A program made the position numbers and the translations under genes. Positions 22,436 through 46,562 of a stretch of DNA of 64,000 nt are shown piece by piece. The stretch lies in NCBI RefSeq assembly GCF_004795035.1, contig NZ_SSBK01000002.1:186001-250000 (forward strand), written 5' to 3'. Position 1 is the stretch's first letter. Every line of letters starts with the position of its first letter. This DNA comes from Streptomyces sp. A0958 (GTDB lineage Bacteria; Actinomycetota; Actinomycetes; Streptomycetales; Streptomycetaceae). Below the pieces are notes generated by a model. It ran no database searches and was not told the DNA's origin. It saw only the letters and a program-made list of their open reading frames with translations.

Positions 22436-23965
22436 ATGCCGCCGTATCAGCCCTCTGCCGACTGGCAGTTCGAGGTCCCCACCACCGGCAGCAAGCGGCT
22501 CCCGCCCGCCGCCCGCTACGTTGAGTCGCTGACGCACCAGGGGTACGGATTCGAGGCGGCCATCGCCGACCTCGTGGACAACTCGATCGACGCGGGCGCC
22601 CGCAACGTCGTCGTCAGCCTCCTGCGCGACGAGGACCGCCTGGTCAGCCTGCTCGTCATAGACGACGGCCGCGGCATGGACGACGCGGCCCTGGACACCG
22701 CGATGACGGTGGGCGGCCGCCAGGGTTACGACGACGCGGCGCTCGGCCACTTCGGCGCGGGTCTCAAGGCGGCGTCCCTGTCGCACGCCGACTCGCTCAC
22801 CGTGGTCAGCCGCACCAAGCGCAGCCCGTCCGCCGGCCGCCGCTGGCTGACGGCCCGCGCCCAGGCGGACTTCACCTGCGACATCGTCGACCCGGGGTAC
22901 TGCCAGGACCTGGTCGACCGCTACGACGGGGTCATCCAGTGGCAGGGCACGATCGTGCGCTGGGACCGGGTCCGCGCCTTCGACACCATCACCGCCGGTC
23001 AGGCCGACCGCTACCTCAACGACGCGATCGAGAAGCTGGAGACCCACCTCGGGCTCTACCTCCACCGCTTCCTGGCCCGCGACGGCTTCAACATCGACAT
23101 CGTGGTCGAGGACGTGCGGACCAAGGAGGAGCTGGACCACCGCGGGGTCGAACCCATCGACCCGTTCGGCTACCGGGTGCCCGGCCGGACCGGCTTCCCC
23201 CGTACGTACACCGCGCCGGTCGAGGGCGTCGGCGAGGTCGCGCTGACCGCGCACATCTGGCCGCCGAAGTCACCGCTGGTCAGCTTCCGGGGCATCGGTC
23301 CGCTCGCCGAACGCCAGGGCTTCTACATCTACCGCAACGACCGCCTCGTCCAGGCGGGCGGTTGGAACAGCACCCGCAGCCCGGAGGGCCACCTCGCGCT
23401 CGCCCGGATCGCCGTAGACCTGCCGTCCGCGCCGAACGACGTCTTCAACCTCACGGTGAAGAAGGACGGCGTGACCGTCACCCCCGCGTTCGCCCGAGGT
23501 CTGGAGCAGGCCGTGGACGCCACGGGGCACGGCTTCGCCTCGTATGTCCAGGAGGCGGCGCTCACGTACCGGGAGGCGGCCAGGCGCGCCACCGAGCCGC
23601 AGCGCAAGGCCGTCCTCCCGGCCGGGAAGGGGATGGACCCGAAGCTGCGGCGCACGCTGCGCGACGAGCTGCCGGAGCTGGAGGGCGAGGACCCGATCGC
23701 GTTCCGCTGGGACAGCCTGCCGTCGGACGTGTTCTTCGAGCTCGACCGGGAGAACCGTGAGGTCAGGCTCAACAAGGCGTACCGGCAGGTGCTGAACGGA
23801 GGCCGGCGCGGGGGGCTGAACGACGCTCCGGTGATCAAGAGCATGCTGTACCTGATGGTCAACGAGATCTTCCAGAAGGAACGGGTCCGGGCCGTCCACA
23901 CCGACAACGTCGCGTTGTGGAACAGCGTCCTGGTCACGGCGGCGCGCTGCGAACTCGACCGCTGA
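22436..23965 (+). CDS. MORC/MutL-type GHKL ATPase of a Z1-associated system
   Basis: A 509-residue GHKL ATPase. The N-box lies in IADLVDNSIDAGA (Asp45, Asn49). The G1 box is VIDDGRGMD (Asp76-Gly80) and the G2 box is GHFGAGLKAAS (about 104-114). A transducer-like domain follows with FRGIGPLAERQGFYIYRNDR. MutL/MORC homologues encoded next to Z1 proteins, Vsr and cytosine methylases are a known class of restriction-associated ATPases, thought to act as DNA clamps or loaders. The start is ATG 22436 after GAGGAAGG. It opens the left arm of the island; the next gene follows after 95 nt. There is no MutL endonuclease domain. Confidence 0.88.
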   Translation: MPPYQPSADWQFEVPTTGSKRLPPAARYVESLTHQGYGFEAAIADLVDNSIDAGARNVVVSLLRDEDRLVSLLVIDDGRGMDDAALDTAMTVGGRQGYDDAALGHFGAGLKAASLSHADSLTVVSRTKRSPSAGRRWLTARAQADFTCDIVDPGYCQDLVDRYDGVIQWQGTIVRWDRVRAFDTITAGQADRYLNDAIEKLETHLGLYLHRFLARDGFNIDIVVEDVRTKEELDHRGVEPIDPFGYRVPGRTGFPRTYTAPVEGVGEVALTAHIWPPKSPLVSFRGIGPLAERQGFYIYRNDRLVQAGGWNSTRSPEGHLALARIAVDLPSAPNDVFNLTVKKDGVTVTPAFARGLEQAVDATGHGFASYVQEAALTYREAARRATEPQRKAVLPAGKGMDPKLRRTLRDELPELEGEDPIAFRWDSLPSDVFFELDRENREVRLNKAYRQVLNGGRRGGLNDAPVIKSMLYLMVNEIFQKERVRAVHTDNVALWNSVLVTAARCELDR

Positions 23966-24060
23966 ACCACCGTCCTGCCCCTCCCCGTCCTCGCTCCCCA
24001 CCCCCGCCTCCCCGTCCTCGTCTCCCCGTCCTCGCCCCGATCCGAGAGAGCCGCCCCGCC

Positions 24061-26988
24061 ATGACCGACCATCTGTTCACCCTGCACGGCGATGTGCTGG
24101 CCGCGATGCGACGGGGCCCCAAGCCCTTCGCCAAGCTCGTCCTCGCACTTTCCGAGGACGAGGAAGCGGTGGACACCAGGCTCTCCCACTTCCGGGACCG
24201 TGTCCTCGCGGCCGACCCCGGTGACGGTCTGATCGCCCTGTGGCACCGCACCCTGACCACCTGGGACCTGGTGGAGCAGGCGGACTGGTCGGCGGCACCG
24301 GCCCGTACCGAGGCGCGCCGCTCGCACACGTACGACCGGCTGGGCTTCGGTGCCGGTCTGCGCAAGGCGCTCGACAGCGCGGTCCCGGTCTTCAAGGAGC
24401 CCGGGCCGACGGTCATCAGCAAGGAGTTCGTCTCCTGGTACTCGCGCGACGCGGCCGCCGCGCGTTCCTTCTACTGGACCGCCTACGAACGGCTCCTGCG
24501 GCGCAAGGGCTGGCCGGACGCGGCGGTCTCCGGGCTCGACGAGGCGAGCCATGCCGTGGTCGAACGCCTCTCCGACCCCACCCGCCCCGAGGCCTACGGT
24601 GCGCGCGGCCTGGTGGTGGGCTACGTCCAGTCGGGCAAGACCGCCAACTTCACCGGCGTCACCGCTAAGGCCATCGACGCCGGGTACCGCCTGGTCATCG
24701 TCCTCGGCGGCACCCTCAACCTGCTCCGGGGCCAGACGCAGCGCCGGCTGGACATGGAGCTGATCGGCCAGGAGAACATCCTGCGCGGCGCCGACCCGGC
24801 GGACCCGGACTCCCTGGTCGGCATCGACTACCAGGAGGACGCGGACTGGCCGGAGAAGTTCGTCAGCCACGGCGGCCGGCCCTCCGCCCTCGGCGCCTTC
24901 GACATCGAGCGCCTCACGACCCGCGACGACGACTACAAGAGCCTGCTGAACGGCATCCGCGCCCTCGAATTCGAGAAGCAGGCCCGCACCGAGCCGCTGT
25001 ACGCCCCGGCCAACCTGCACCACGCGGCCGCCCGGGTCATGGTCGTGAAGAAGAACAAGTCCGTGCTGGACAAGCTGATCAAGGACCTCAAGAAGATCGG
25101 CCCTATCCTCTCCGAGATCCCCGCGCTGATCATCGACGACGAGTCGGACCAGGCGTCGGTCAACACGACGGACCCGAAAAAGTGGGAGGACGGCAAGGTC
25201 GCCCGTACGGCCATCAACGGCCAGATCTCCCAGTTGCTCGGCCTCCTGCCGCGCGCCCAGTACGTCGGCTACACCGCGACCCCGTTCGCCAACGTCTTCG
25301 TCGACCCGGGCGACGGTGAGGACATCTTCCCGCGCGACTTCCTCATCTCGCTGCCCCGCCCGGCCGGCTACATGGGCGTCCAGGACTTCCACGACCTCGA
25401 CACGGACGAGGGGTCCGCCGAGGAGACGCACATCCGCGGCATCTACGAGGAGACGGGCGACCGCCTCCGGGAAGCCCTGGACGCCTTCGTCCTGACGGGC
25501 GCGCTCAAGCTGTACCGCGCCGACCGCGGCGTACCCGAAGGACCGTTCCGCCACCACACGATGCTCGTCCACGAGTCCGTACGGATGGCCGAGCACACGG
25601 CCCTCGCCCTGCGCATCAACTCCATGTGGCACCGGGCCGCGTACACGAGCCGCCAGGGCCACGAACGCCTCGCGGACCTCCTCGCCTCCGACTTCCACCG
25701 CTTCGCCGACGACGGCCTGCCCATGCCGGAGTCGTACGACAAGCTCAGGAGCTATGTCTCCCGCGCCCGCCAGCTCATCAACGCCGGCGGCACACCCGTC
25801 CTGGTGGTCAACGGCGACACCGAGCGCGACTACGACCAGCCCGACCTGGACTTCGAACGCACCCCCAACGTGTGGAAGATCCTGGTCGGCGGCACCAAGC
25901 TCTCCCGCGGCTTCACCATCGAGGGCCTGACGGTCACCTACTACCGCCGCACCACCCAGCAGGCCGACACACTGATGCAGATGGGCCGCTGGTTCGGCTT
26001 CCGCCCCGGCTACCGCGACCTGGTCCGCCTCTACATCGGCCGCGAGGAACCGCTGGGCAAGACGAAGACGGTCGACCTGTACGAGGCCTTCGAGGCCATC
26101 TGCCGCGACGAAGAAACGTTCCGCGCCCAGCTCACCCGCTACGCCACCCTGGTGGACGGCAAGCCCCAGGTCACCCCGGCCCAGATCCCCCCGCTGGTCT
26201 CCCAGCACCTCTCCTGGATCAAGCCCTCGGCCCGCAACAAGATGTTCAACGCCGAGCTGGTGGAGATCCGCTCCCCGGGCCAGTGGGTGGAACCCACGGC
26301 GTACCCGGTGAGGGCGGAGGAACTGCGGGGGAACGTCGAGGCGTGGGGGGCGGCGCTCGGGGCGTTGGACCGCACACCCGTCACCCTGCGCTGTGCCGCC
26401 GCCGAGACCGGTCGGGACGACAGCTACGAGGCGGTGCTGGGCACGATCGACCACAGCACGTTGGTCGGCATCCTGTGGGACCTGAAGTGGTCCGTTCCCG
26501 GCCAGTTCACGCCGCACCTCCAGTCCTTGGTCTCGGCGGGCGAGACCGGCGACGGCATCGACGACTGGCTGGTGATAGCCCCGCAGCAGACATCCGGACG
26601 GAGGGTGGAGGCGAACGTTCTCGGTTACGGGCCTCTCTCCATGGCACGTCGTACCCGGCGGCGCGGCGACCTCTTCGGGGCGATCAGCGAGCCGAAGCAC
26701 CGCGGGGTCGCCCTGCGGATCGCCGGCGCACTGAAGGGCTCCGGCGATCCCTTGGTCGAATCCCTCGTCCGTGAGCGGCGGGGCGTCGTGGTCCTCTACC
26801 CGCTGGTCGAGGCGGAGCCACGGCTCGGCCCCGACGGCACGATCGACCCGGGAGACGTCGTCATGGCCTTCTGCCTGGTCGCCCCCGCCTCGGCGACCGC
26901 GGGACAGCGGAATCTGGTCCGCTTCCGTGCCATCGATTCGAGCAAGGGTGATTTCGCCGTCATTGATCGCGAAGGGGGTCGGGCGTAG
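24061..26988 (+). CDS. Z1-domain superfamily II helicase-like protein
   Basis: A 975-residue protein with the Z1 module. Walker A is QSGKTAN (Q190-SGKT), the Walker B-like motif is D360-E-S-D in IIDDESDQAS, motif III is GYTATPFANV (about 402-412), and late motifs are GGTKLSRGFTIEGL and QMGRWFGFRPGY. The N-terminal 150 and C-terminal 250 residues match no domain I know. Z1 proteins occur with MORC-type ATPases in phage-restriction loci and probably move along or remodel DNA. The spacer before it carries three TCCCCGTCCTCG-like units. The Vsr gene follows within 15 nt, so one transcript is likely. Confidence 0.92.
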   Translation: MTDHLFTLHGDVLAAMRRGPKPFAKLVLALSEDEEAVDTRLSHFRDRVLAADPGDGLIALWHRTLTTWDLVEQADWSAAPARTEARRSHTYDRLGFGAGLRKALDSAVPVFKEPGPTVISKEFVSWYSRDAAAARSFYWTAYERLLRRKGWPDAAVSGLDEASHAVVERLSDPTRPEAYGARGLVVGYVQSGKTANFTGVTAKAIDAGYRLVIVLGGTLNLLRGQTQRRLDMELIGQENILRGADPADPDSLVGIDYQEDADWPEKFVSHGGRPSALGAFDIERLTTRDDDYKSLLNGIRALEFEKQARTEPLYAPANLHHAAARVMVVKKNKSVLDKLIKDLKKIGPILSEIPALIIDDESDQASVNTTDPKKWEDGKVARTAINGQISQLLGLLPRAQYVGYTATPFANVFVDPGDGEDIFPRDFLISLPRPAGYMGVQDFHDLDTDEGSAEETHIRGIYEETGDRLREALDAFVLTGALKLYRADRGVPEGPFRHHTMLVHESVRMAEHTALALRINSMWHRAAYTSRQGHERLADLLASDFHRFADDGLPMPESYDKLRSYVSRARQLINAGGTPVLVVNGDTERDYDQPDLDFERTPNVWKILVGGTKLSRGFTIEGLTVTYYRRTTQQADTLMQMGRWFGFRPGYRDLVRLYIGREEPLGKTKTVDLYEAFEAICRDEETFRAQLTRYATLVDGKPQVTPAQIPPLVSQHLSWIKPSARNKMFNAELVEIRSPGQWVEPTAYPVRAEELRGNVEAWGAALGALDRTPVTLRCAAAETGRDDSYEAVLGTIDHSTLVGILWDLKWSVPGQFTPHLQSLVSAGETGDGIDDWLVIAPQQTSGRRVEANVLGYGPLSMARRTRRRGDLFGAISEPKHRGVALRIAGALKGSGDPLVESLVRERRGVVVLYPLVEAEPRLGPDGTIDPGDVVMAFCLVAPASATAGQRNLVRFRAIDSSKGDFAVIDREGGRA

Positions 26989-27002
26989 GAGACTTGGCAG
27001 TG

Positions 27003-27458
27003 ATGAGTACCGCCAGACCCTCCTCCCCGGCCGTGTCCGCCCGCATGAGCCGACAGGCGAGCCGCGACACCGCGCCCGAAGTGGCGGTCCGGAAGCTGTT
27101 GCACGCGTCCGGCTACCGGTACCGCCTCAACGAGCGGGTGCCCCACATGTCCCGGCGGACGATCGACATCGCTTTCACCCGGGCGAAGGTGGCGGTGTTC
27201 CTGGACGGATGCTTCTGGCACGGCTGTCCCGAACACGCGACGCAACCGAGGTCGAACGCCGAGTGGTGGCGGCAAAAGCTCGATCGCAACATGGCGCGGG
27301 ACGCCGAGACAACGGCACACCTGGTCGCCGAGGGGTGGACGGTCATGCGCTTCTGGGAACATCAGGCGCCGGCCCAGGTCGCGGAGAAGGTGGCGGAAGC
27401 CGTCGATCGGAAGAAGTCCGCGAGGCGGACAACAGGACGGGGGTGCGGGAGCTCGTGA
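27003..27458 (+). CDS. Vsr-type very short patch repair endonuclease
   Basis: A 151-residue PD-(D/E)XK-fold nuclease. The Vsr core is intact: RRTIDIAFTRAKVAVFLDGC followed by FWHGCPEH, which holds the catalytic Asp and His and the zinc Cys residues, then WWRQKLDRN and GWTVMRFWEH. Vsr nicks next to T:G mismatches formed when 5-methylcytosine deaminates and usually accompanies a C5 methylase. In Z1/MORC systems a Vsr-like enzyme may instead be the restriction nuclease. AGGAG at 26987-26991 fits GTG 27000 slightly better than ATG 27003. The stop overlaps the next gene (GTGA). Confidence 0.93.
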   Translation: MSTARPSSPAVSARMSRQASRDTAPEVAVRKLLHASGYRYRLNERVPHMSRRTIDIAFTRAKVAVFLDGCFWHGCPEHATQPRSNAEWWRQKLDRNMARDAETTAHLVAEGWTVMRFWEHQAPAQVAEKVAEAVDRKKSARRTTGRGCGSS

Positions 27459-28411
27459 GCGGTTCGCGGTTCGTGGACGTGTGCGCGGGGGCCGGAGGGC
27501 TGGCCCTCGGGCTGGAACAGGCCGGGTTCGATCCGGTGCTGCTGTTGGACAAGAAGCCCGTGGCCTGCGAGACGCTGGGCATGAACCGACCGCACTGGAA
27601 GGTCCTGCGGATGGACCTGCTGGACTTCGTTCCGGACGAGCACCCGCACACGTACGACGTCGACCTGTTGTCCGCGGGGCTTCCTCGCGTGAAGTCGAGC
27701 GCGACGGCGGCGAGAGCCGAGACCGACGAGGAGGAAGGGCTCCTGAAGGCGGCGGTCCTCCTCGCCCACTCGATCCAGCCGCGCGCCGTGCTCATCGAGA
27801 ACGTACCGGGCCTGGTCGACGCCGGCGCCTTCGAGCCCCTGCGCGAGTTCGTCCGGGAGGAACTGGAGCACCTCGGCTACCGGCTGCACTGGTTCGTCCT
27901 GAACGCGGCGGATTTCGGTGTGCCGCAGGACCGTAAGCAGGGAGTGCTCGTCGCTCTCAAGGAGCGGTACTTCGACCGCTTCCGGCCGCCGGTGCCCACG
28001 GTGCAGGATCACGTGTCGGTGGGAAGGGCGCTGCGGCGCTCCATGGCTGCTCGTGGGTGGAGCGGCGCAGACGCCTGGGCGGCTCAGGCGGTCGCCGTGG
28101 CGCCGACTCTGGTCGGTGGCTCGGACAACCGAGGGGGCGCCGACCTGGGCCCGACGGGCACGAAGGCCGCCTGGGCACGGATGGGGGTCAACGGAGGGGC
28201 GTTGGCCGACGAGGTTCCGGGCCCCGAGGACAACAGCAGCGCGGGCCTGATCAAGCTTACGGACGCGCAGACCGCGCTGTTGCAGGGCTTCCCGGCCGAC
28301 TGGCTGTTCGCCGGGCGGAAGACGGCTCGGTACCGTCAGATCGGCCATGCCTCGCCGCCGCCGGTGGGGAAGGCGCTGGGCCTTGCCGTCGCGGAGGCGT
28401 TGCGTGGTTGA
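27455..28411 (+). CDS. C5-cytosine-methyltransferase-like protein lacking the catalytic Cys motif
   Basis: A 318-residue protein with a C5-methyltransferase fold. The SAM motif is FVDVCAGAGGLALGL, motif VI is LIENVPGL, the motif VIII-like segment is GVPQDRKQG, and motif X is RQIGHASPPPVGKALG. The expected Pro-Cys nucleophile motif is replaced by SAGLPRVKSSATA, so no cysteine lies where the nucleophile should be. It may be inactive, perhaps a recognition or regulatory partner of the intact methyltransferase downstream. The frame is undamaged and codon use is normal, so it is not a decaying pseudogene. Coupled to vsr by a 4-nt overlap. Confidence 0.88.
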   Translation: MSGSRFVDVCAGAGGLALGLEQAGFDPVLLLDKKPVACETLGMNRPHWKVLRMDLLDFVPDEHPHTYDVDLLSAGLPRVKSSATAARAETDEEEGLLKAAVLLAHSIQPRAVLIENVPGLVDAGAFEPLREFVREELEHLGYRLHWFVLNAADFGVPQDRKQGVLVALKERYFDRFRPPVPTVQDHVSVGRALRRSMAARGWSGADAWAAQAVAVAPTLVGGSDNRGGADLGPTGTKAAWARMGVNGGALADEVPGPEDNSSAGLIKLTDAQTALLQGFPADWLFAGRKTARYRQIGHASPPPVGKALGLAVAEALRG

Positions 28412-28438
28412 GCGCGCGAGGCCGTCCGAACACGAGGG

Positions 28439-28475
28439 TTAGTTGATCTTGAACGGCCGGCTACACTTCAATCCC
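28439..28475 (+). promoter_or_regulatory. Candidate promoter for a leaderless methyltransferase transcript
   Basis: TACACT (28462-28467) has -10 character and ends 8 nt before the ATG at 28476, with no ribosome site between. TTAGTT lies 17 nt upstream as a poor -35. The spacing predicts a transcript that begins at or near the start codon. Confidence 0.4.
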
Positions 28476-29726
28476 ATGACCCACGCACCTCACTCACCAC
28501 TTCTACCTGCGGATTTCCGCATCGTGGACTTGTTCGCCGGCCCCGGGGGCCTGGACATCGCGGCCACGATCATGGGAGTGGAGAGCATCGGGGTCGAGTG
28601 GGACGACCCGACCCGTGCGACGCGCGCCGCGGCCGGCCTTCGTACCACCAGGGAGAAGGACGTCGCCGCGCTCGGGCCGTGCGACCCCCAGGTGAAGGAC
28701 GCGAACGTCCTCACCGGCGGCCCGCCCTGCCAGTCGTTCTCCGTGGCCGGCAACCGGGAGGGCCACAAGGCCCTGGACGACGTGAAGCGGCTCGCCGGTT
28801 GCTTGGTCGGTCACAAGGACTTCGCATCCTTCAAGGCCGCCTGGAATGCGGTCAAGGCCGAGACCGACTCCATGTCCGACGCACGTACGGGTTTCGTTCT
28901 CCAGCCGTTGCGTTGGATCATGGAGGCGAAGCTCAGGCGCGGCAGGCCCTATGAGGTGGTGGTACTGGAGCAGGTACCCACCGTGCTGCCGGTATGGAAG
29001 CACTACGCCGTACTCCTCAGGCGAATCGGCTACGCGGCCGAAGCTCATGTGCTGCATGCCGAGGACTTCGGCGTCCCGCAGACGCGTCGGCGTGCCGTGC
29101 TGATCGCCCAGTGGAACCCCGAGAACACGGGGAGGCGTGTCGACTTTCCCCCTGCGACCCATCAGCGGTACCGCAAGGGGATCGAGCGCCTGCTGCCCGT
29201 TACGCGTGAGAGCACGGCCACCGAGCGGGAGGACGGTTCCCTGTTCGCGCCGCCGAGGAGCGCCAAGGAGCCCAAGAAGGTGGAGCCCTGGGTGTCGGTG
29301 GGGGATGCTCTCGGCGCCACGCGGACCGGCGACTTCGTCCTGGTCTCCAACTACGGCTCGGGCGGCGACCCGAAGAACCGAGGGCGCCGAACCTCGCAGG
29401 AGCCGGCCGCGACGATCACCGGCAAGTTCCGCCGCAACCGGCTCTTCCTCCTGAAGGAGAACGAGTCGGGCGAGAAGGAGGTCGGCGAGGAGTTGGACCG
29501 GCTGTCGCCCGAGGAGGGCGGGCTTCTCCAGTCGTTCCCCGCTCGCTACCCGTGGCAGTCCACCGATGTCGCCCAGCAGATCGGCAACGCCGTCCCGCCG
29601 CGACTCTCCCTCCACATCCTGAGCACCGCGCTGCTGCGTGAGCGGCCGAAGGACGAGTGGTTCACCCAGCTCAAGGAGTGGGAGCCGCAGCCCCGCTCCA
29701 CGGAGGGGGACACCGAAGGCCCCTGA
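28476..29726 (+). CDS. DNA C5-cytosine methyltransferase
   Basis: A 416-residue enzyme with the full motif set: FRIVDLFAGPGGLD (SAM), GGPPCQSFS with the nucleophile Cys, VVLEQVPTV (motif VI, with EQV for the usual ENV), GVPQTRRRAVL (VIII) and AQQIGNAVPPRLS (X). A target-recognition region lies at about 215-330. It methylates cytosine C5 in a specific site, probably to protect self DNA. It is separated from the left-arm genes by 64 nt and may have its own promoter, which would let modification precede restriction. DISARM class 2 loci also include a C5 methylase. A hairpin overlaps the stop. Confidence 0.93.
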   Translation: MTHAPHSPLLPADFRIVDLFAGPGGLDIAATIMGVESIGVEWDDPTRATRAAAGLRTTREKDVAALGPCDPQVKDANVLTGGPPCQSFSVAGNREGHKALDDVKRLAGCLVGHKDFASFKAAWNAVKAETDSMSDARTGFVLQPLRWIMEAKLRRGRPYEVVVLEQVPTVLPVWKHYAVLLRRIGYAAEAHVLHAEDFGVPQTRRRAVLIAQWNPENTGRRVDFPPATHQRYRKGIERLLPVTRESTATEREDGSLFAPPRSAKEPKKVEPWVSVGDALGATRTGDFVLVSNYGSGGDPKNRGRRTSQEPAATITGKFRRNRLFLLKENESGEKEVGEELDRLSPEEGGLLQSFPARYPWQSTDVAQQIGNAVPPRLSLHILSTALLRERPKDEWFTQLKEWEPQPRSTEGDTEGP

Positions 29727-29741
29727 CGGCGGGGCCTTCGG
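29713..29741. terminator. Bidirectional terminator between the left and middle operons
   Basis: An 11-bp perfect stem CCGAAGGCCCC/GGGGCCTTCGG with a 7-nt loop. It overlaps the methyltransferase stop codon and faces the end of the minus-strand operon. Confidence 0.75.
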
Positions 29742-29752: not shown

Positions 29753-30652
29753 TCAGTCCGCCTCGTTGTCCTCGGTCTTCTTCCCGCGCACGGGAGCTTC
29801 GGCGAAGAGTTTCGCGAAGTGGTCGGCGAGGGCGGCCACCGAGTCCTCCGGTGCCTTCTCCTCGTCCGGTCCTTCCGGGAGGGCTCTTCGCTGAACCGCC
29901 GGTGCCCATTCCGCGGCCGCGATCCATTGCTCCGTCGGCCGGCCGTCCCGCTCGACGTCGGGCGCCACGACGTCGTACATGAGCGTCGCCGCGGACGCGT
30001 TGACCACCCGTGCGAGCGCGTTGATCTCCCTGCCGGTGGTGACTGTGCCGCGCTCGATCAAACGTGCCAGCGCCTGGGCCGTCGGCCGATGATCGATCGC
30101 GTCGAGTCTCAGCCCGGTGTTGAGCACGTCCTGGTGTGCGCAGACGGTCACCACCGGGCCGTAGTCGGGGCCGTTCCGGAAGAGTTCGGCGGCCCACCAG
30201 AGGCGGGCGAACGCCTGGGTGTAGGACGCACCACGAAAGCGCGTGGCGGCGACGCGCCTCGCCTTCCCCGGGCTCTCCTTCTTCGGCTCCGGCATGTGTC
30301 GCCAGACGACGTAGTCGGGCGCGACTCCCAGCGCCAGGTAGTTCCACAGCCTGCGATCGGCGGCTTCGCGGCGCGTGAGCCGCAGAGTCGCGTGGAGCCG
30401 AGGAGCCAACCAGGCATCGGCGGCGGTGACCTTTTCGTCGCGGAACGCGTGCATCGCGTCGTCGACGAGATCACGGACCGGCATCAGCTCCCCTCTGGCC
30501 TCGTCACCCGGCAGGGGCTCGGTGATCTTGTTGAGCGCTATGGCCGGGACATCCTCCTTGCCGGTGAGCAGGCCTTCGGTGAGGTACCGGGCGGCGTTGA
30601 GATCCGCGAGGAACGCCAGGCGTTCGGGCAGGTGGCTGGGCTTGTCGGTCAC
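29753..30652 (-). CDS. DUF6339-like protein in the defence island
   Basis: A 299-residue, mostly helical protein. Recognisable stretches are RRLWNYLALGVAPDYVVWRH, RFRGASYTQAFARLWWAAEL and a charged C-terminal tail. These resemble DUF6339 proteins as I recall them; no catalytic motif is visible. The GTG start (30652) overlaps the stop of the upstream gene by 4 nt. It is the last gene of a three-gene operon behind the XRE-GHKL ATPase. Co-translation suggests a stoichiometric partner. Function unknown. Confidence 0.7.
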   Translation of the reverse strand: MTDKPSHLPERLAFLADLNAARYLTEGLLTGKEDVPAIALNKITEPLPGDEARGELMPVRDLVDDAMHAFRDEKVTAADAWLAPRLHATLRLTRREAADRRLWNYLALGVAPDYVVWRHMPEPKKESPGKARRVAATRFRGASYTQAFARLWWAAELFRNGPDYGPVVTVCAHQDVLNTGLRLDAIDHRPTAQALARLIERGTVTTGREINALARVVNASAATLMYDVVAPDVERDGRPTEQWIAAAEWAPAVQRRALPEGPDEEKAPEDSVAALADHFAKLFAEAPVRGKKTEDNEAD

Positions 30653-33749: not shown

Positions 33750-34363
33750 GCCGCTGTCCAACGTCACCACTCCTCGGCTGCCACGACGACCATGGGGGCT
33801 ACCGTACCCGAAATTTGACACTCTTCGACGGGCGACAACGAAATTTGACACCCCTCCGAGGCGGTTGGAACGTTCATCGCTTCCTCGATCCAAATGCACT
33901 GGAAGTCCTGCATCGGGTAGCCGAATCCGACTTGCCACCCATCGCCCATTCAGTCCGAATTGCGCCTCGAAACGACGCCCCGTTCGCCGCATCTGTTGTG
34001 CCGAAAGCCTCTTGTGGTGGCCCCGGGTGGGCATGTAGCGTCGAAAACGGTTGAGCCCCGACCGGGCTCGAAAGGCGCGTTTCCACAAGTGCCTTATTCG
34101 TTGCGCCTGGACGCCACTCCCACGTCCGGTCCACCGGATTTCATCGGATCGACGAAACCCCTTGCTCGTATCCGAAAAACGCGGTTCCATTCTCACACCT
34201 TTCCTCCGATCCGACTTGTCCCATTCACCCGAAAAAACCATTTGCCTGCCGAATTCACCTCCCCCACCTCGTGTGTATTCAGCCCTCTGCACGTGCGCCA
34301 TCAGCGTTTCCGAACACCGGCATCACTCAACCGACATTTCACGAGAGCAGGGGGCCCACCATC
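33750..34363. other. AT-richer divergent control region of the island
   Basis: About 614 nt between divergent operons, visibly less GC-rich than the flanking genes. It holds a 13-bp direct repeat near 33,809-33,851 and a small hairpin GAGCCC/GGGCTC at 34053-34069. No frame reads like a conserved protein. It probably carries promoters for both operons and might encode an RNA. Confidence 0.6.
33809..33851. promoter_or_regulatory. Two direct repeats CGAAATTTGACAC, 30 bp apart
   Basis: Identical 13-mers at 33809-33821 and 33839-33851. The 30-bp spacing is close to three helical turns, so bound proteins would sit on one face. They lie 60-100 nt upstream of the XRE-GHKL start, a natural place for its own HTH domain to bind. 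Each contains TTGACA on the plus strand. Confidence 0.6.
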
Positions 34364-37800: not shown

Positions 37801-39605
37801 ACCGTCTACTGCGCTGTTCGGAGCTGGAAGAGGTGCTCCGGACGCCGAAGGGCTCCGACACGACCCCTCTCGACAGTGCGGTGCAGGGCACCACCGTCCT
37901 GGTGCTGGATTCCGCGGATCGCCTCGCGACGCTGGTCGCCGCGGACCGGGAACTGCGCTGGGGACTCAAGGAGTCGGGGTGCCGAGCGGTCCTCGACGCG
38001 CAGGCACGACAGGAGGCGGACCAGGAGCTTCAGGCTGCGTTGCGACGTGTCCGCCAGGCGGACAGCGTCGAGGAGAAACTGGAACTGCTCATCGGCGCGA
38101 CCGCACTGCGTGCCGGTCTCCCGCCGGGCCTGCTGGAGAGCGAGCCGCCGGAGCCGGGAGGCGGTGAGCCGTCCCCTCGTCGCATCGCGCGCCTGGCCTA
38201 CAACGCCCACGGCGACGGTGTGCTCCAGGTGCACGCCCGGGATCTGCAGCTCGCCTATCCGAGCCATGCGCCTTCCAGTTTCACCGGGGCGTCGCCGGCC
38301 GTGAAGTTCGTCTCGGAGTTCGGCTTCCCGGACTCCTTCGCGGGCGCGCGGACGCCGTCGCTGCCGCCTCGCATCGAGGTCGCGGGTCCGTCGGAGTTCC
38401 CGCGTCTGCACGACTACCAGGAGCGGCTCGCGGCGAAGGTGTTCGCGATGCTCGATCGCTTCACCCCGCAGCGCGGCATGCTCTCCCTGCCCACCGGCGC
38501 GGGCAAGACGCGGGTGGCGGCCGAGGCCGTCATCCGCTGGATCAAACAGGTGGGCGAGCTGAGCGGCCCCATCCTGTGGATCGCGCAGACCGAGGAACTC
38601 TGCGAGCAGGCCGTGCAGAGTTGGAGCTTCGTCTGGTCGAAGGTCGGGGCCGAGACGCCCTTGACCATCAGCAGGCTGTGGACGACCAACGAGGCCGGCC
38701 CCGTCACGGACCGCCCTCACCTCGTCGTCGCCACGGACGCCAAACTCCGCAACTGCTTGGGGACCGAGGGCTATGCGTGGCTTCGAGAAGCCAGCCTGGT
38801 CATCGTCGACGAGGCCCATGTCGCCATCTCTCCCCAGTACACGGACATCCTGGCGCAGCTCGGGCTGACGGCGTACGAGACGCGGCGCCACCTGCTCGGT
38901 CTCACCGCCACCCCGTTCCGCAACACCAACGACGCGGAGACCAAGCGCCTCGTCCAGCGGTTCGGTGCCACGCGGCTCGACGACGGGGTCTTCCCGTCCG
39001 GCGATCCGTACGCGGAACTGCAGGAACTCGGCATGTTGGCGAAGGTCACGCACCGGGAACTCCTCGGAGGCACCATCGAACTGGACGCCGACGAGAAGGC
39101 GCGGGCTGATCAGATGAGCCTGCTGTCGAAGGCGGCCGAGCAGCGCCTGGCCGACGACCAGGACCGCAACAAGCGCATCATCGAGGAGATCGGCGCCATG
39201 CCGAAGGACTGGCCCGTGCTGGTCTTCGCCACGTCCGTCGCCCACGCCAAGTTCCTGGCCGCGAAGCTGAAGGACCTGGGCATCACCGCCGCCTCGGTGG
39301 ACTCGGCCACGTCCGCCGGCGAGCGCCGCCGGAGCATCGACGACTTCCGTCGCGGTCGCGTCCGAGTGCTGACGAACTACGGGGTGCTGACGCAGGGCTT
39401 CGACGCGCCGGCGACGAGGGCGGTCGTCATCACCCGCCCGACGTACAGCCCGAACGTCTACCAGCAGATGATCGGTCGCGGTCTCCGGGGGCCCGGGAAC
39501 GGCGGCAAGGAGGAGTGCCTGATCCTCAACGTCCGGGACAACATCACGAACTACGACAAGGCCCTCGCCTTCACCCAGTTCGAGCACCTGTGGAGGGCCA
39601 AGTGA
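34839..39605 (+). CDS. Sacsin-like GHKL ATPase fused to SF2 helicase
   Basis: A 1588-residue protein. The N-terminus is a sacsin-type ATP-binding fold: N-box LFELVQNAADEI, CANEGTPVTPEG in place of the usual DxGxG, and G2 GQIGRFGVGVKSIL. About 900 residues without recognised motifs follow. The C-terminal 400 residues are an SF2 helicase: Q-motif region RLHDYQERL, Walker A PTGAGKT (1218-1224), DEAH (1324-1327), GLTATPFRN, and QMIGRGLRGP. Two ATP-driven modules in one chain suggest a large machine acting on DNA. The start is TTG 34839 with GGGA just upstream. It opens a four-gene operon; its stop overlaps the next start (GTGA). Confidence 0.9.
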   Translation: MNHSDVTGISGASPVIQKILEQSTRVLETYRVDPGLILEHANGERRITQGGYGDRQLFELVQNAADEIASAPGGKVHVVLTGTHLYCANEGTPVTPEGAETILRMSVSKKRGGQIGRFGVGVKSILAVTNTPQFFSRSGAFGFDREWSHEEIRKARGASTDEDFEAPVLRMARPLDADKERLADPVLNDLLGWATTVVRLPLLPGAAERLGHDIHDSASRTEEKREFPARFQLFSHHVGTVILEDSRFEPPIRREITVEHDGFQHTIHETRTGRPESNSAWKVFTQAHRPSEAARASAGEMHDRGTIDISWAVPEYTGETVLTTPRGRGQFWSFFPTKYPMTLRGALNGAWKTNEDRQNLLDSSPFNQEIIRVAARLVVDSLPHLVPPQDPAAYLPLLPGRNKDSETLNWADKYLTEQIWRLAAERPSLPDQDGVLRAPRDVHVHPAPLNKVPLKQEWLRMWSACPGRPANWIHPSVEAAEFRAGKVGHILEETKQRRATVREWLEALVTEETVEASGVAIRILAAMIREASPFAAEARTARIVLTEESGLVAPVVGKVYRRTVQDGLRDGTTYVDPRLSEDESLISDLNEIGIREADPRGRFIGVLEQGVENYGPQDWTRFWELFHSAGGSRVSGEVTARVPDPSGTLFVRTVDGRFHRMRECLLPGPVVPGDGSRDASVAVDPSFHSDDLHVLREFGMRDRPTHGHRPTNEPWFEDYRAAIHDSYCKTLSSNAARPTLSRIKLEGSPVGGPLHLLELLSEEGRAAFVKALPDDSVIDTWTLQVGVQASTRKVIHSPLRWMLRRHGRVSTSQGIVPIASAVGPQLHAYADVLPVADISAEKARKLHLPVLVDEVPAKQWDRLLEQLRDSDDDVFVGRTYVMLTRLEVDFPDQLTRCRVGAEWGTREDSEIAVAATEAEYRALRAEQIPALLAGGPEDAELLVDTWKMRPYAEVISKEIRYVGVGEPVLLQDEFPTLRQRLGPAVNNHRLLRCSELEEVLRTPKGSDTTPLDSAVQGTTVLVLDSADRLATLVAADRELRWGLKESGCRAVLDAQARQEADQELQAALRRVRQADSVEEKLELLIGATALRAGLPPGLLESEPPEPGGGEPSPRRIARLAYNAHGDGVLQVHARDLQLAYPSHAPSSFTGASPAVKFVSEFGFPDSFAGARTPSLPPRIEVAGPSEFPRLHDYQERLAAKVFAMLDRFTPQRGMLSLPTGAGKTRVAAEAVIRWIKQVGELSGPILWIAQTEELCEQAVQSWSFVWSKVGAETPLTISRLWTTNEAGPVTDRPHLVVATDAKLRNCLGTEGYAWLREASLVIVDEAHVAISPQYTDILAQLGLTAYETRRHLLGLTATPFRNTNDAETKRLVQRFGATRLDDGVFPSGDPYAELQELGMLAKVTHRELLGGTIELDADEKARADQMSLLSKAAEQRLADDQDRNKRIIEEIGAMPKDWPVLVFATSVAHAKFLAAKLKDLGITAASVDSATSAGERRRSIDDFRRGRVRVLTNYGVLTQGFDAPATRAVVITRPTYSPNVYQQMIGRGLRGPGNGGKEECLILNVRDNITNYDKALAFTQFEHLWRAK

Positions 39606-41515
39606 CCGACGCCTACCTCGACAGCCCGCCCCTCACCGAGGAGCAGCAGGCCGTCGTCGACCAGCCCTGGGACACCCGGCTCCTGGTGACGGCCGGCGCC
39701 GGCGCCGGCAAGACGCACACGCTCGTCCGCCGCCTCGACGCACTCATGGGCGACGAGGAGGAAGCACTCGAAGCCCGCGAGATCCTGGTGCTCAGCTTCT
39801 CCAGGGCCGCGGTACGGGAGCTACGGGAACGGATCGCTCTCCATGCCCGTGAGGCCCGCCGGGTCAGGGTGCAGACCTTCGACGCCTGGGCCTACGCCCT
39901 CCTGCGCAGCGAGCAGCCCGACCGGGACTGGAGCGCGCTGCGCTTCGACGAGAGGATCGGCGAGGCCACGGAGGCGATCCTGCGCGGCGCCGTCGAGGAG
40001 AGCGAGCAGGGCGCGCCCGCCCACGTCGTGATCGACGAGGTCCAGGACCTGGTCGGTGATCGACGGGACATGGTGGAGACGCTCCTCGACCGCTTCCAGG
40101 AGAACTGTGGATTCACCGTGGTCGGTGACGGAGCTCAGGCGATCTACGGGTTCCAGGTGTCCGACGAGGATGCCCGCGCGTCGGAGACGAACTACTTCTT
40201 CGACTGGCTGCGGGCCTCCTATCCGGACGACCTGGTGGAGCTCCATCTGTCCGCCAACTTCCGGGCGCGTACCGCCGAGGCGGGTGTCGCACTGTCCCTG
40301 GGGGCCTCGCTCCAGCGTCTGCCGTCCGAGGGCGCGGCCTCGGACGCCGCCGGGGAGGAGATCCGTCGGAGCCTGATCGACCTGCTCCGGACCTGCCCGT
40401 CGTTCGGCGCCGTCGACGACACGTTCACCCTCGATTCCTTGAGGGACTTCCGCGGTACGTGCGCGATTCTCTGCCGGGACAACCGGCAGGCCCTGGTGCT
40501 GTCGGAGACGTTGTTCGCCCACGGGGTCCACCACCGGCTCCAGCGGGATCTCCAGGACCGCCCGGTGCCGGCCTGGGTGGCCCCGGTGCTGCGCGGCACC
40601 GGCTCGACCACACTGACGGAGGACCGCTTCCTGGATCTGCTCGGCTCGGGCCCGATCTCGCCCGTCGGTGATCGTGGAAGGATCTGGCGGTCGCTGCGCG
40701 GCGCGGCGCGGGCGCCCCGGGGGCTGCTGGACGTCGCCGCCGTGCGGCGGGCCGTGGCCCAGGGCAGGTTTCCCGACGACCTGGCTGCGGTCGAACCGGC
40801 CGATCTCGTGGTGTCGACCGTCCACCGGGCCAAGGGGCTCGAATTCGACCGGGTGATCGTGGTCGAACCCGCTTCGACGGCGGAGCTGCGCAAGCAGCAC
40901 ACCCATGTCGACCCGGCGGCGGAGGCCCGCGCCCTCTACGTCGCGATGACGCGCCCCAGGGACGACCTGTTCCGCATGGACGCACCGGACACCGCGCTGG
41001 TCCGCAGGGACCGGCGCACCGGCCGGCACTACGCCGGCGGGTGGAAGCCCTACCAGCGCTACGGCCTCTCGGCCGCGAACGCGGACGTCTCTCGCGAGCA
41101 CCCGCCCGGCACCGACGGCTTCGAGCACGACGCCGGAGCCGTGCAGGACTACCTCGCCGCGTCGGTCGCCCCGGGCGACGCCCTGGAACTCCGTCTGCAG
41201 CACGCGATGCCCCTGGCTTCGGACCAGAGCCCGCCGTACACGGTGTTCCACCGGGACCGCCCGGTCGCCGTCGTCTCGGAGAGGTTCCGGCAGGACCTGT
41301 ACACCTCGCTCAAGATCAGCAGGACCTGGGACGTCAACTGGCCCACGAGTGTCGAGGGCTTCCGCGTCGACTGCCTGGAGAGCGTGGCGGGCAGCACGGC
41401 CTCCGGCGCCCGTGCGGGGCTGGGCGAGCACGGCGTCTGGATGGTGCCCCGCATGTCGGGGCTCGGTCGCTACAGGTGGACCGACACGCACACATACGAG
41501 GAGAGCGACCGATGA
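39602..41515 (+). CDS. UvrD/Rep-like SF1 helicase
   Basis: A 637-residue superfamily 1A helicase. Motif order: Q-motif LTEEQQAVVD, Walker A AGAGAGKT (31-38), Ia VLSFSRAAVRELRER, Walker B DEVQD (145-149), III GDGAQAIYGF, IV LHLSANFRA, V STVHRAKGLEFDRVIV and VI LYVAMTRPRDDL. The last 150 residues form an unusual C-terminal extension. It probably unwinds DNA 3' to 5' for the defence complex. The GTG start overlaps the sacsin-helicase stop, and its stop overlaps the drmA start (ATGA). Shorter than housekeeping UvrD/PcrA. Confidence 0.92.
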   Translation: MTDAYLDSPPLTEEQQAVVDQPWDTRLLVTAGAGAGKTHTLVRRLDALMGDEEEALEAREILVLSFSRAAVRELRERIALHAREARRVRVQTFDAWAYALLRSEQPDRDWSALRFDERIGEATEAILRGAVEESEQGAPAHVVIDEVQDLVGDRRDMVETLLDRFQENCGFTVVGDGAQAIYGFQVSDEDARASETNYFFDWLRASYPDDLVELHLSANFRARTAEAGVALSLGASLQRLPSEGAASDAAGEEIRRSLIDLLRTCPSFGAVDDTFTLDSLRDFRGTCAILCRDNRQALVLSETLFAHGVHHRLQRDLQDRPVPAWVAPVLRGTGSTTLTEDRFLDLLGSGPISPVGDRGRIWRSLRGAARAPRGLLDVAAVRRAVAQGRFPDDLAAVEPADLVVSTVHRAKGLEFDRVIVVEPASTAELRKQHTHVDPAAEARALYVAMTRPRDDLFRMDAPDTALVRRDRRTGRHYAGGWKPYQRYGLSAANADVSREHPPGTDGFEHDAGAVQDYLAASVAPGDALELRLQHAMPLASDQSPPYTVFHRDRPVAVVSERFRQDLYTSLKISRTWDVNWPTSVEGFRVDCLESVAGSTASGARAGLGEHGVWMVPRMSGLGRYRWTDTHTYEESDR

Positions 41516-44500
41516 GGAATGCGTCGAACCCGCATGCCGCCCACTACGCGGTGCGCGAGGATCTCGTCGATCAGCTCCGGCGGGATCTGATGGGCCCCGG
41601 GGCCTCCGACGAGATCCTGACGCAGGACCCGCCGATCACGGCCTATCCCATCGGGGTGCTGTTCCCCCGGCCCTCGGACAAGGGCGCGGAACAGGCTCTG
41701 GACGAGGACGAGGCCGAGACGGAGGGGCTGGACGACGCCCCCCTCATGCGGGGACGCGGGGACGTCGAGGAGGCGGCTCCGGATCTCGGCGCCTCCGGAA
41801 CGGGGGACCGTCGCCCGTCCTCCATGGGGATCACGTTCGCCGTCGACCCCTCGGTCGCGTCGAGCATCGTCGTGCACACGGAGGCCGCGATGTACGACCC
41901 GATCGACCCCGGGGGGCGGCCGATCTCCGCCACGCGGGCCGAGGCCCGCAGCACCTCGGACCAGAAGGAGCACTGGCGCCGGCGCCCCCTGGACCTGAGT
42001 TCGCTGACGATCGACGTGACAACCCCGAAGCTGCACCGGCCGCCGCCGCTGCACGACGGAGTGGCCGTCGAGATCCTCGTCCGTGCCCCGGCCGCCGAAC
42101 CGGTCACCGTCACCGTCACCTTGATCAACACCCACCCGGTGAGCGAGCGGGAGCTCCAGGACGCGTACTGCCTCTACCAGCCCCGTCTCACCGTGACGAC
42201 GCCCTCGGGGGCGCCCGCCTTCGTGGAGCGACCCGCCGAGCGACGCGCGGTCGACCAGGAAGTGGCGACCAGCCGGCTGCTCCACCGCCACGCGCCCACC
42301 TTCGCCATGGGCCACGGCTGCGCGGCCGAGTGGGACTGGACTCCGCCGCCCATCGGTATCCCCGCCAACTCGCGCGCCGCGATCGCCACCGTACGCACGC
42401 AGTTCCTGCCGGCCCACGAGGTGTTGCTGACCGATTCGAACCCGGACATCGACGACTCGGCCCTCACGATGCACGGCCTGGCGACACGTCCGGAGAGCGA
42501 GGTCCTGGCCGCGCTGAACAAGCTGATGGCCGACTACGCGGAGTGGATCGACCGCAAGGAGGCGGAGTCCGAGGCCTTCCGGGGCACGTCGTACGAGGCC
42601 CCGGCGCGGGCGCAGATCGAACAGTGCCGCACCGCCCTGGCCCGGATGCGCCGGGGCATCCGGGCGCTCGGTGAGAATGCGGACGCGATGCGGGCGTTCC
42701 GTCTCGCCAACCGCGCCATGGCACACCAGCGTGCTCGCGGCGAGTGGGTGCGGAACGGACGTGACGGAGCACCCGACGAGACGCGTGGGCGGTGGCGTCC
42801 GTTCCAGATCTCCTTCATGCTGCTCTGCCTGGAAGGCATCGTCGACCCCGAACACGAGGACCGAGCGGTCGCGGACCTGCTGTGGTTCCCCACCGGCGGC
42901 GGCAAGACCGAGGCGTATCTCGGTCTCATCGCCTTCACCACGTTCCTGCGGCGCCTGCGCCTGAAGGAGCGAGGAGCCGGAGTGACCGTACTCATGCGCT
43001 ACACACTGCGGTTGTTGACCCTGCAGCAGTTCGAGCGGGCCGCCGCCCTCATCTGTGCCATGGAACGCATCCGGCTCGACAACGAAGGGACGATCGGCAC
43101 GGAGCCGATCTCCATCGGCATGTGGGTCGGCCAGTCCGCCACCCCCAACCGGCTCTCGGACGCGGAGAAGAGCCTGGTCGAGCTGCGCAAGGAGAAGGAA
43201 CTCCAGGAGCGGAACCCCGTTCAACTGCACGCCTGCCCCTGGTGCGGCACCCGTCTGGACGCCTACCAGTACGAAGTGGACGAGGAGGCCAAGCGGATGT
43301 ACGTCCGCTGCCCCGACGACTGGTGCGACTTCCGCGACGGTCTGCCGGTGCACCTCGTCGACGAGGCCGTCTACGACGCCCGGCCCGCCCTGGTGATCGC
43401 CACCGTCGACAAGTTCGCCGCGATGCCGTGGCGTGTGCAGACCGCCGCTCTCTTCAACCGGGACCGTGCGGACGGCACCCCTCCCCCCGAGCTGATCGTC
43501 CAGGACGAGCTGCACCTCATCTCGGGCCCGCTCGGCACCCTCACCGGTCTGTACGAGACCGCGGTGGACCTCTTGGCGGGCAGCCCGAAGGTCATCGCCT
43601 CGACCGCCACGATCCGCCGTGCGGCGGACCAGGGGAGGATGCTGTTCGACCGCGCGGTCGCCCAGTTCCCGCCGGCCGGGATCGACGCCCGGGACTCCTG
43701 GTTCGCCGTGGAGACTCCGAAGGAGCGCAAGGCGAGCCGGCAGTACGTCGGTCTCCTCACCCCCAGCACCAGCCAGTCGACACTGCTCATCCGCACCTAC
43801 GCGAATCTCCTCCACCGGGCCGCGCTCGCCGATGTCGACGAGGGTGTGCGCGACGCGTACTGGACGCTCGTCGGCTACTTCAACAGCCTTCGCCTGCTGG
43901 CCGCGGCCGAGCTCCAGGTCCACGACGACGTCGACGCCTACCTGGGATACCTGGCCTCGCGCGACGACCGACCGAAGCGGAAGGTGCAGGAGCAGATCGA
44001 GCTGACGAGCCGTGCCAACTCCAGCGAGATCCCGAAGCGTCTCAAGCAGATGGAACAGCGTCTGCCGCACCCGGACGTGGTGGACGTCCTGCTGGCCACG
44101 AACATGATCTCGGTCGGCGTCGACGTGGATCGGCTCGGGCTGATGGCGGTCATGGGTCAGCCGCAGACCACGGCCGAGTACATCCAGGCGACCAGCCGCG
44201 TCGGGCGACGCCACCCCGGCCTGGTCGCCGTGATGCTGAACTCGTCACGGTCCCGCGACCGTTCGCACTACGAAAGCTTCCAGCACTTCCACTCCGCGCT
44301 GTACCGAGAGGTGGAATCGACCAGCGTGACGCCCTTCTCGTCCCGTGCGCGCGACCGGGGGCTGCACGCGGTCGTCGTGGCCCTCGCGCGCATCCTGATC
44401 CCGGCGGCTGGACCCAACGACGGCGCGGGCCGTATCGGAGAGTTCCGTGAGGAGTTGGAGGAGGTCGTCCGCACCACGCTCCTGGCCCGCGTCCAGTCGG

Positions 44501-44730
44501 TCGCCCCGGACGAGTACCGGGCGACCGCCGACGCCTTCGACGAGTTCGTCGACCTGTGGGAAGAGGAAGCCGTAAAGCGCGGCGGGCTCCTCTACGAGCC
44601 GAAGCGCGGCAGCAGGACACCGTCGTTGTTGAGCGCGTTCGACAGCGAGGACGAGAACGCGTGGCCGACACTGTGGAGCCTGCGCGACGTCGACGCCGAA
44701 TCGGCCCTGTTCATGGAGGCATCCCGATGA
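41512..44730 (+). CDS. drmA: DrmA-like helicase (DISARM core type)
   Basis: A 1072-residue helicase. The N-terminal 450 residues are unassigned. The SF2 core has Walker A FPTGGGKTEA (K465), DELH (665-668) in place of DEAH, STATIRRA, and QATSRVGRRHPG as motif VI. A zinc-knuckle insertion (CPWCG, then CPDDWC) lies between the first helicase motifs. These are the marks of DrmA, which with DrmB forms the core DNA-translocating complex of DISARM. Both ends overlap neighbouring genes by 4 nt. No drmC-type phospholipase-D nuclease lies nearby, so the gene symbol reflects family, not a proven DISARM role. Confidence 0.88.
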   Translation: MRNASNPHAAHYAVREDLVDQLRRDLMGPGASDEILTQDPPITAYPIGVLFPRPSDKGAEQALDEDEAETEGLDDAPLMRGRGDVEEAAPDLGASGTGDRRPSSMGITFAVDPSVASSIVVHTEAAMYDPIDPGGRPISATRAEARSTSDQKEHWRRRPLDLSSLTIDVTTPKLHRPPPLHDGVAVEILVRAPAAEPVTVTVTLINTHPVSERELQDAYCLYQPRLTVTTPSGAPAFVERPAERRAVDQEVATSRLLHRHAPTFAMGHGCAAEWDWTPPPIGIPANSRAAIATVRTQFLPAHEVLLTDSNPDIDDSALTMHGLATRPESEVLAALNKLMADYAEWIDRKEAESEAFRGTSYEAPARAQIEQCRTALARMRRGIRALGENADAMRAFRLANRAMAHQRARGEWVRNGRDGAPDETRGRWRPFQISFMLLCLEGIVDPEHEDRAVADLLWFPTGGGKTEAYLGLIAFTTFLRRLRLKERGAGVTVLMRYTLRLLTLQQFERAAALICAMERIRLDNEGTIGTEPISIGMWVGQSATPNRLSDAEKSLVELRKEKELQERNPVQLHACPWCGTRLDAYQYEVDEEAKRMYVRCPDDWCDFRDGLPVHLVDEAVYDARPALVIATVDKFAAMPWRVQTAALFNRDRADGTPPPELIVQDELHLISGPLGTLTGLYETAVDLLAGSPKVIASTATIRRAADQGRMLFDRAVAQFPPAGIDARDSWFAVETPKERKASRQYVGLLTPSTSQSTLLIRTYANLLHRAALADVDEGVRDAYWTLVGYFNSLRLLAAAELQVHDDVDAYLGYLASRDDRPKRKVQEQIELTSRANSSEIPKRLKQMEQRLPHPDVVDVLLATNMISVGVDVDRLGLMAVMGQPQTTAEYIQATSRVGRRHPGLVAVMLNSSRSRDRSHYESFQHFHSALYREVESTSVTPFSSRARDRGLHAVVVALARILIPAAGPNDGAGRIGEFREELEEVVRTTLLARVQSVAPDEYRATADAFDEFVDLWEEEAVKRGGLLYEPKRGSRTPSLLSAFDSEDENAWPTLWSLRDVDAESALFMEASR

Positions 44731-46562
44731 CCCCGCCCCCCGCCCGCCGCCGCCGGGCCGGCGCACCCGAGCGCAGCTACCCGCGACGGGGTTCGGTGCG
44801 TCGTGCGCAGATGATCACCACCTACGGTGTCGGATCGATCGTCGCCGTCGACAACGAGTCGTTCATGGTGAGCGGCATCGACTCGTGGAACGTCGGCGAA
44901 GCGCCGACCATTTTCGAGCACCGCCTGGCGCGCGTGCTCGGGGTGAAGTCGTTCCGCCTCCCCCCGGCCTCCGACGACACCAGCAAGGACGGGGTCCGTG
45001 TCCGGCGCTTCCCCCTGTGGCACTCGTGCCCCGGCTGCAACGTCCTTCAGCATGTGAGCCGGTTCAACTCCCCGCCGGGAAAGAACGTCTGCGGGGACTG
45101 CGACGAGGAGCTGGTGCCCTCGCGCTTCGTCATGGCCTGCGCCAAGGGACACATCGAGGACTTCCCGTACTGGAAGTGGGCGCACCGAAACAACCGACAG
45201 GACGGCGATGCCGGGCTGTGCGGCGGTGAGATGCGGCTGCGAACCAGCGGGAGGACCGCGTCGCTCCGGTCGATCCTGATCTCCTGCACCTGCGGGATTC
45301 CCGAGGTCTCCATGGAGGGAGCGTTCCGCCGCGCCGCCCTGTCGGACCTGAAGGTCTACTGCAACGGTCGGCGCCCCTGGCTCGGGAACACGCCCGCCGA
45401 GCACTGCACGGAGAAGCCGCGCACCCTCCAGCGCGGTTCGTCCGCCGCCTGGCAGCCCATTGTGAAGACGGCCCTGTCGATCCCACCGTGGAGCGACGGG
45501 CACGCGGCCCGCCTGGAACCGCACTGGGACTCCCTTCGCGAGATGAAGGACAACCCCAACGAGATGAAGGCGTATCTGAAGGCCCTGACGCTGACGGAGA
45601 ACTACGAGTTCTCCATCGACAAGGTCATGGGCCTTCTGGAGGCGGAGAACCACGAGGACACCGCCCCGAACGAGGACAAGGGCTCCGACAGCGCCTATCT
45701 CGCTCTGCGCAAGCAGGAGTACGAACGGCTGGTCGCCGGTCGTCCGGAGAGCGAGACGGACCACGAGGACCAGTTCGTCTGCGAGTCGCCCCGCTCTTCC
45801 GCCGCCGGCCTGGCCTCCTATGGGGTGACAGGACCCATGCTGGTGAAGCGCCTGCGTGAGGTGCGTGCCCTGAAGGCCTTCTCACGCGTGGATACACCCG
45901 AAACGCACACGGATGTCCACGAGGCGGCCCTGTCGGCGGCCCCGATGGACTGGCTCCCGGCCATGGAGGTCCAGGGCGAGGGCGTCTTCCTGCGCCTGGA
46001 CGAGCAGCGCCTCGACGACTGGGCGCACAGTGCGGGGGTGGCCGCCCGAGCCGATCGCATCCGGGCCAACCACCTGCGCATGCTCCGCGAGCGCGCCCAG
46101 GACCCCGCCTCCGTACCGGATTCACCGGCGGACGCCCGCATGGTGCTCCTGCACACGCTGTCGCACACGCTGATCAACGAGTGGAGCCTCGACGGCGGCT
46201 ACCCGGCCGCCTCGCTCCGGGAGCGGTTGTACGCGGACGAGTCGATGGCCGGCCTCCTCATCTGTACGGCCACCAGCGACTCCGCCGGAAGTCTCGGCGG
46301 CCTGGTCGCCCAGGGGGAGCCCGACCGCCTCGAATCCGCTCTGCACTCGGCGCTCCGCAGGGCCCAGTGGTGTTCGGCGGACCCGCTCTGCATGGAGTCC
46401 ACCGGGAGCGGCGTGGGCGGAATCAACCTCGCCGCCTGCCACGCGTGCGTCCTGCTGCCCGAGACCAGCTGCGAGCACAACAACGGCCTGCTCGACCGCG
46501 CGCTGCTGGTCGGAACACCGGAGGACCCGTCGATCGGGTTCTTCCACGAGGCACTGCGCTGA
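44727..46562 (+). CDS. drmB: DrmB-like DUF1998/MZB protein
   Basis: A 611-residue partner of DrmA. The N-terminus has RRGSVRRAQMITTYGVGSIV, typical of DrmB. Zinc-binding pairs follow (CPGCN, CGDCDEE, CTCG). The C-terminal DUF1998/MZB signature is SDSAGSLGGLV, then CHACVLLPETSCEHNN and LLDRALL. In DISARM, DrmB binds DrmA and they clamp DNA with a free 5' end. The ATG overlaps the drmA stop (ATGA). It is the last gene of the right arm. No clear terminator follows. Confidence 0.9.
   Translation: MTPPPARRRRAGAPERSYPRRGSVRRAQMITTYGVGSIVAVDNESFMVSGIDSWNVGEAPTIFEHRLARVLGVKSFRLPPASDDTSKDGVRVRRFPLWHSCPGCNVLQHVSRFNSPPGKNVCGDCDEELVPSRFVMACAKGHIEDFPYWKWAHRNNRQDGDAGLCGGEMRLRTSGRTASLRSILISCTCGIPEVSMEGAFRRAALSDLKVYCNGRRPWLGNTPAEHCTEKPRTLQRGSSAAWQPIVKTALSIPPWSDGHAARLEPHWDSLREMKDNPNEMKAYLKALTLTENYEFSIDKVMGLLEAENHEDTAPNEDKGSDSAYLALRKQEYERLVAGRPESETDHEDQFVCESPRSSAAGLASYGVTGPMLVKRLREVRALKAFSRVDTPETHTDVHEAALSAAPMDWLPAMEVQGEGVFLRLDEQRLDDWAHSAGVAARADRIRANHLRMLRERAQDPASVPDSPADARMVLLHTLSHTLINEWSLDGGYPAASLRERLYADESMAGLLICTATSDSAGSLGGLVAQGEPDRLESALHSALRRAQWCSADPLCMESTGSGVGGINLAACHACVLLPETSCEHNNGLLDRALLVGTPEDPSIGFFHEALR

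Follow-up and report, generated by a model that had tools for sequence, protein, structure and literature searches.

A predicted catalytically dead C5-methyltransferase beside GHKL-ATPase and DrmAB operons in Streptomyces sp. A0958

The window analysed here, 64,000 nt of Streptomyces sp. A0958 (NZ_SSBK01000002.1, positions 186,001 to 250,000), contains at 22436..46562 a block of putative defence genes, in which the C5-methyltransferase MT1 is predicted to be catalytically dead. It lies close to the mA-mB-mC operon and to an operon encoding the helicase SACS, UvrD, DrmA and DrmB. From this anatomy we infer, tentatively and with somewhat less than an even chance of being right, that MT1 would act as a target reader steering swappable phage-defence effectors. 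Gene models were assigned from Pfam, PADLOC and NCBIfam profiles, scored against curated cut-offs where these are given. The genes that matter most are (window coordinates; lengths in amino acids, aa):

27455..28411, + strand: MT1, 318 aa, NgoMIV/NaeI-type C5-methyltransferase, motif IV PC changed to PR, predicted catalytically dead (PF00145)
28476..29726, + strand: MT2, 416 aa, C5-methyltransferase, motif IV GGPPCQSFS, predicted active (PDLC03374, 4e-199)
29753..30652, - strand: mC, 299 aa, DUF6339 protein (PF19866, 41.9 bits; PDC-M33C, 1e-7)
30649..31641, - strand: mB, 330 aa, predicted beta-sandwich with helical C-terminus
31638..33749, - strand: mA, 703 aa, XRE-type helix-turn-helix (PF01381) plus putative GHKL ATPase, PDC-M33A-like (2.6e-22)
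34839..39605, + strand: SACS, 1588 aa, sacsin-type GHKL domain plus RadD-like superfamily 2 (SF2) helicase (NF047352 above cut-off; PF04851/PF00271)
39602..41515, + strand: UvrD/GajB-like superfamily 1 (SF1) helicase, 637 aa (PF00580, 93.6 bits)
41512..44730, + strand: DrmA, 1072 aa (NF038325, 1027 bits, cut-off 950)
44727..46562, + strand: DrmB, 611 aa (NF038324, 482 bits, cut-off 240; MZB domain PF09369)

The methyltransferases MT1 and MT2

The original prediction listed two C5-methylase-like proteins. Both are members of the family and MT2 has intact motifs on inspection, but MT1 lacks the catalytic Cys: its motif IV reads PRVKSS, against PCPPFS in plasmid relatives from Azonexus, Paracoccus and Rhodococcus, and no cysteine was found near motif IV. 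These relatives, 44-46% identical to MT1, lie beside NgoMIV/NaeI-type restriction endonuclease genes in Azonexus and Paracoccus and near one in Rhodococcus; no cognate endonuclease gene was found in the block. In an alignment of 121 rows (MT1 of the window plus its top 120 among 5651 homologues), the column of the catalytic Cys expected of an NgoMIV/NaeI-type enzyme holds Arg throughout, and the second Arg of motif VIII is Gln and the Asn of motif X is His in all 121 rows. No row departs from ENV or from the first Arg of motif VIII, and MT1 retains the S-adenosylmethionine (SAM) motif. MT1 is a member of the group formed by the M genes in NgoMIV/NaeI-type restriction systems, which it resembles in identity, recognition region and SAM motif, and the loss in motif IV predicts a dead METHYLTRANSFERASE. 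That the block is an ordinary DISARM variant with an ordinary pair of active methylases, MT1 working through another residue, would agree with the retained SAM motif and ENV and with public databases, which label MT1 'DNA cytosine methyltransferase'; given the three substitutions and the missing cysteine, it is very improbable.

The specificity of NgoMIV/NaeI-type M enzymes is GCCGGC. The recognition region PTLVGGS...GGADLGPT is common to MT1 and its Cys-bearing relatives, so that reading of GCCGGC by MT1 is a homology-based prediction.

The class-wide sample (296 genomes, one copy judged per genome) contained an MT1-family gene in 30 genomes. The eight genes closest to MT1 are dead, with Arg in G000, G252, G089, G261, G101 and G215 and Ser in G250 and G275, and they form one clade (100/100). 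Cys is retained in 21 genes, and G239 shows a separate loss on a long branch; at that locus (L118) the independent NgoMIV-type methyltransferase without catalytic Cys stands in tandem with another copy, with no mA. In the genus sample (271 genomes), 103 genomes had an MT1 hit, 74 of them at 51% identity or more, the level taken as MT1 there. All 48 sequences inspected among those 74 have Arg, the remaining 26 being outside the count, and G532 carries a further dead copy (44-46% identical). Ratios of nonsynonymous to synonymous substitution (dN/dS) against four relatives were 0.14-0.17 for MT1, 0.23-0.31 for MT2 and 0.09-0.13 for mA, so MT1 is being maintained and is not decaying. DUF6339 was fused to dead MT1 in 7/7 loci inspected.

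The best PADLOC model for MT2 is MTase_II (PDLC03374), DrmMII reaching just 2e-18. On a plasmid of Tsukamurella (L008), a gene 45% identical to MT2 precedes UvrD-DrmA-DrmB with one gene between, and another stands beside and ahead of SACS in G281, which fits a DISARM-type methylase role. Among the 30 best MT1 loci, for which neighbours were counted, an MT2-like gene (38-100% identity) adjoins MT1 in every one, and in G101 a fused dead methyltransferase is followed directly by an active-looking C5-methyltransferase. Both observations would suit a two-subunit methyltransferase in which dead MT1, as specificity partner, contacts the site and active MT2 methylates, comparable to the help that DNMT3L gives DNMT3A; we consider this explanation unlikely.

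Co-occurrence of the operons

mA was present in 60/271 genus genomes, with MT1 within 20 kb at 57 of the 60 mA loci and SACS within 20 kb at 44. Counted by genome, the association had one-sided Fisher p values of 3e-39 for mA/MT1 and 2e-32 for mA/SACS, values that overstate independence because the genomes are related. The composite block described in the original prediction is confirmed. The accompanying idea of two systems sharing a methylase, or one larger machine, is partly supported; the MORC arm described below is optional. Besides G424, mA loci without a standard MT1 were found in G319 (an MT1 fragment) and G532 (the divergent dead copy); lower-identity MT1 hits lay near mA in 2/31 cases, G532 itself and G521, also with a dead copy.

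In the class sample, 13 of the 14 places with a full-length SACS have SACS-UvrD-DrmA-DrmB in one contiguous run, SACS being as little as 33% identical; the one left, in G118, is at a contig end, and DrmB in G290a is split over two frames. The mA-mB-mC operon adjoins five of these 14 places, the same five SACS loci that have a dead MT1 nearby. The other nine showed a Cys-bearing C5-methyltransferase in six and none in three. In G101, SACS and dead MT1 are at separate places.

Sortase and SEC-C genes (19596-21544 and relatives) flank many islands, the SEC-C gene lying within 1.5 kb of MT1 in 13/30 loci, and this flank is likely an insertion hot spot. The block could accordingly be an island of independent systems gathered there, with MT1 a decaying NgoMIV/NaeI-type leftover, but this is quite improbable for a gene that is full length, under purifying selection, old (one clade across several genera), present near mA at 57 of the 60 mA loci, and in some loci fused with DUF6339.

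MT1 as a possible target reader

In the proposed mechanism, MT1-mC would engage the DNA site, the GHKL ATPase mA with mB would convey this state, the neighbouring helicase machine would act, and MT2 would give the self-mark. The XRE-GHKL operon named in the original prediction is present: mA has the N-box EATQNSLD, by which its GHKL domain is putatively assigned, no Pfam HATPase match being found. mB had no Pfam or PADLOC match, and its structure model (predicted local distance difference test score 82) gave no convincing PDB match.

Several observations weigh against the target-reader proposal. GCCGGC as the MT1 site is predicted by homology only. A second NgoMIV-type methyltransferase at E<=1e-40 was not found in 73/74 dead-MT1 genomes, so if MT1 does read GCCGGC, the self-mark must come from MT2-like enzymes, or the reading is no check of methylation. 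The active partner is drawn from different families in different loci, and G215 showed no Cys-bearing C5-methyltransferase in the 39 kb examined (none within about 20 kb). Cys is retained in the methyltransferases inspected close to mA-like genes of Synechococcus, Halomicrobium, Halobaculum and G274, an actinobacterium (mA 32%), so dead MT1 is not essential to the mA cassette; G424 has mA-mB-mC-SACS with no MT1 in the stretch examined, and a dead MT1 occurs in the absence of mA in G386 and G513. Finally, the part of PMC9142583 covered here proposes that DrmA senses methylation and DNA ends, so that an extra reader may be superfluous.

Alternatively, MT1 could be a DNA-binding regulator that uses GCCGGC sites to keep the effector promoter repressed and has no role in recognizing targets; some methyltransferases autoregulate. 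Within 250 bp upstream of SACS, 17 dead-MT1 loci contain 23 GCCGGC sites against 6.4 expected, compared with 5 against 3.5 in 10 loci without dead MT1. Close relatives have a pair at about -50/-72, the window has a single site at -51, and one GCCGGC lies 20 bp before MT2. However, 6/17 dead-MT1 loci have no upstream site and the enriched loci are mostly close kin, and we regard this role as rather doubtful.

Comparison with known systems and remaining features

The sacsin-helicase/UvrD/DrmA/DrmB operon of the original prediction was recovered by NF047352, PF00580, NF038325 and NF038324. DrmA and DrmB exceed the curated DISARM cut-offs and a C5-methyltransferase is nearby, but here they are preceded by the sacsin-GHKL and UvrD helicases, and the dead methyltransferase and the DUF6339/XRE-GHKL operon are added. 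The nuclease reported missing is indeed so: the Pfam scan of the block gave no PLD domain and DrmC was not among the PADLOC matches listed. Nor were DrmD and DrmE, which define DISARM classes 1 and 2. DrmC is apparently non-essential in DISARM, according to the covered part of PMC9142583.

Left of MT1 lie three further genes, as had been predicted (MORC-type ATPase, Z1 and Vsr):

22436..23965, + strand: MORC/paraMORC GHKL ATPase, MzaB-like, 509 aa, optional arm, start placed at 22436 (PF13589, 72 bits)
24061..26988, + strand: PF10593 gene (183 bits)
27003..27458, + strand: Vsr-type endonuclease, 151 aa (TIGR00632, 1.5e-34, above cut-off)

MORC-helicase-Vsr operons are already known (PMC2292703), and the window likewise unites a MORC ATPase, a distinct SF2 helicase, Vsr and a cytosine methyltransferase. 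It differs in having no companion restriction-endonuclease-fold nuclease, in its dead adjacent NgoMIV-type methyltransferase, and in that the pair is optional within the DrmAB cluster, the PF10593 gene being missing from the corresponding site in L002 and L004. All 30 of the best loci have Vsr no more than 1.5 kb from MT1. On Rhodococcus opacus pROB02 (L007), NERD, helicase-related (DrmA-like) and DUF1998 genes adjoin an NaeI-type restriction-modification set with Vsr.

Pieces of the block match the DISARM core and, weakly, PDC-M33; MZA scores fall far under the equivalog cut-offs (MzaB 122/850 bits in NCBIfam and 105 bits in PADLOC; MzaC 257/1500 bits), and no further Mza protein was among the matches listed. 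mA and mC match M33A and M33C, and the A-B-C order is identical in Halomicrobium, Halobaculum and Synechococcus, but the scores are weak, M33B is not matched, an XRE domain is added and dead MT1 is attached. DISARM core genes, MORC-helicase-Vsr operons and PDC-M33 are each separately known or catalogued. Among the records listed by the literature searches, which covered few subscription papers, none described a catalytically inactive methyltransferase as part of systems like these.

ARMADA, BRIGADE and TALON, named in PMC12458937 (covered in part), share the YprA-family helicase, and ARMADA II likewise has a GajB-like UvrD. In the window the BrxHI/BrxHII match to SACS is weak (7.8e-4), no PglX-like methyltransferase was among the matches listed, and the DUF1998 part, as in DISARM, belongs to a DrmB of its own. 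Many uncharacterized DISARM-like classes are mentioned in a legend of that source, and the right operon would belong among them; the words sacsin and GHKL are missing from its main text.

Further features of the block are:

33811..33850, no strand: AAATTTGACA twice in direct orientation at a distance of 30 bp, close to the start of mA, candidate XRE operator of mA
34364..34720, + strand: small basic open reading frame upstream of SACS, possible gene, 118 aa

AAATTTGACA has exactly two copies in the whole window and its TTTGACA pair is kept in the window and in the four relatives L002-L005, where the small reading frame is 38-61% identical in translation; an XRE operator is a possible role for the repeats. 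Downstream lie APH-family phosphotransferase genes at 47307-48236 (-) and 52056-52988 (+), the latter resembling APH(6) with a score below cut-off.
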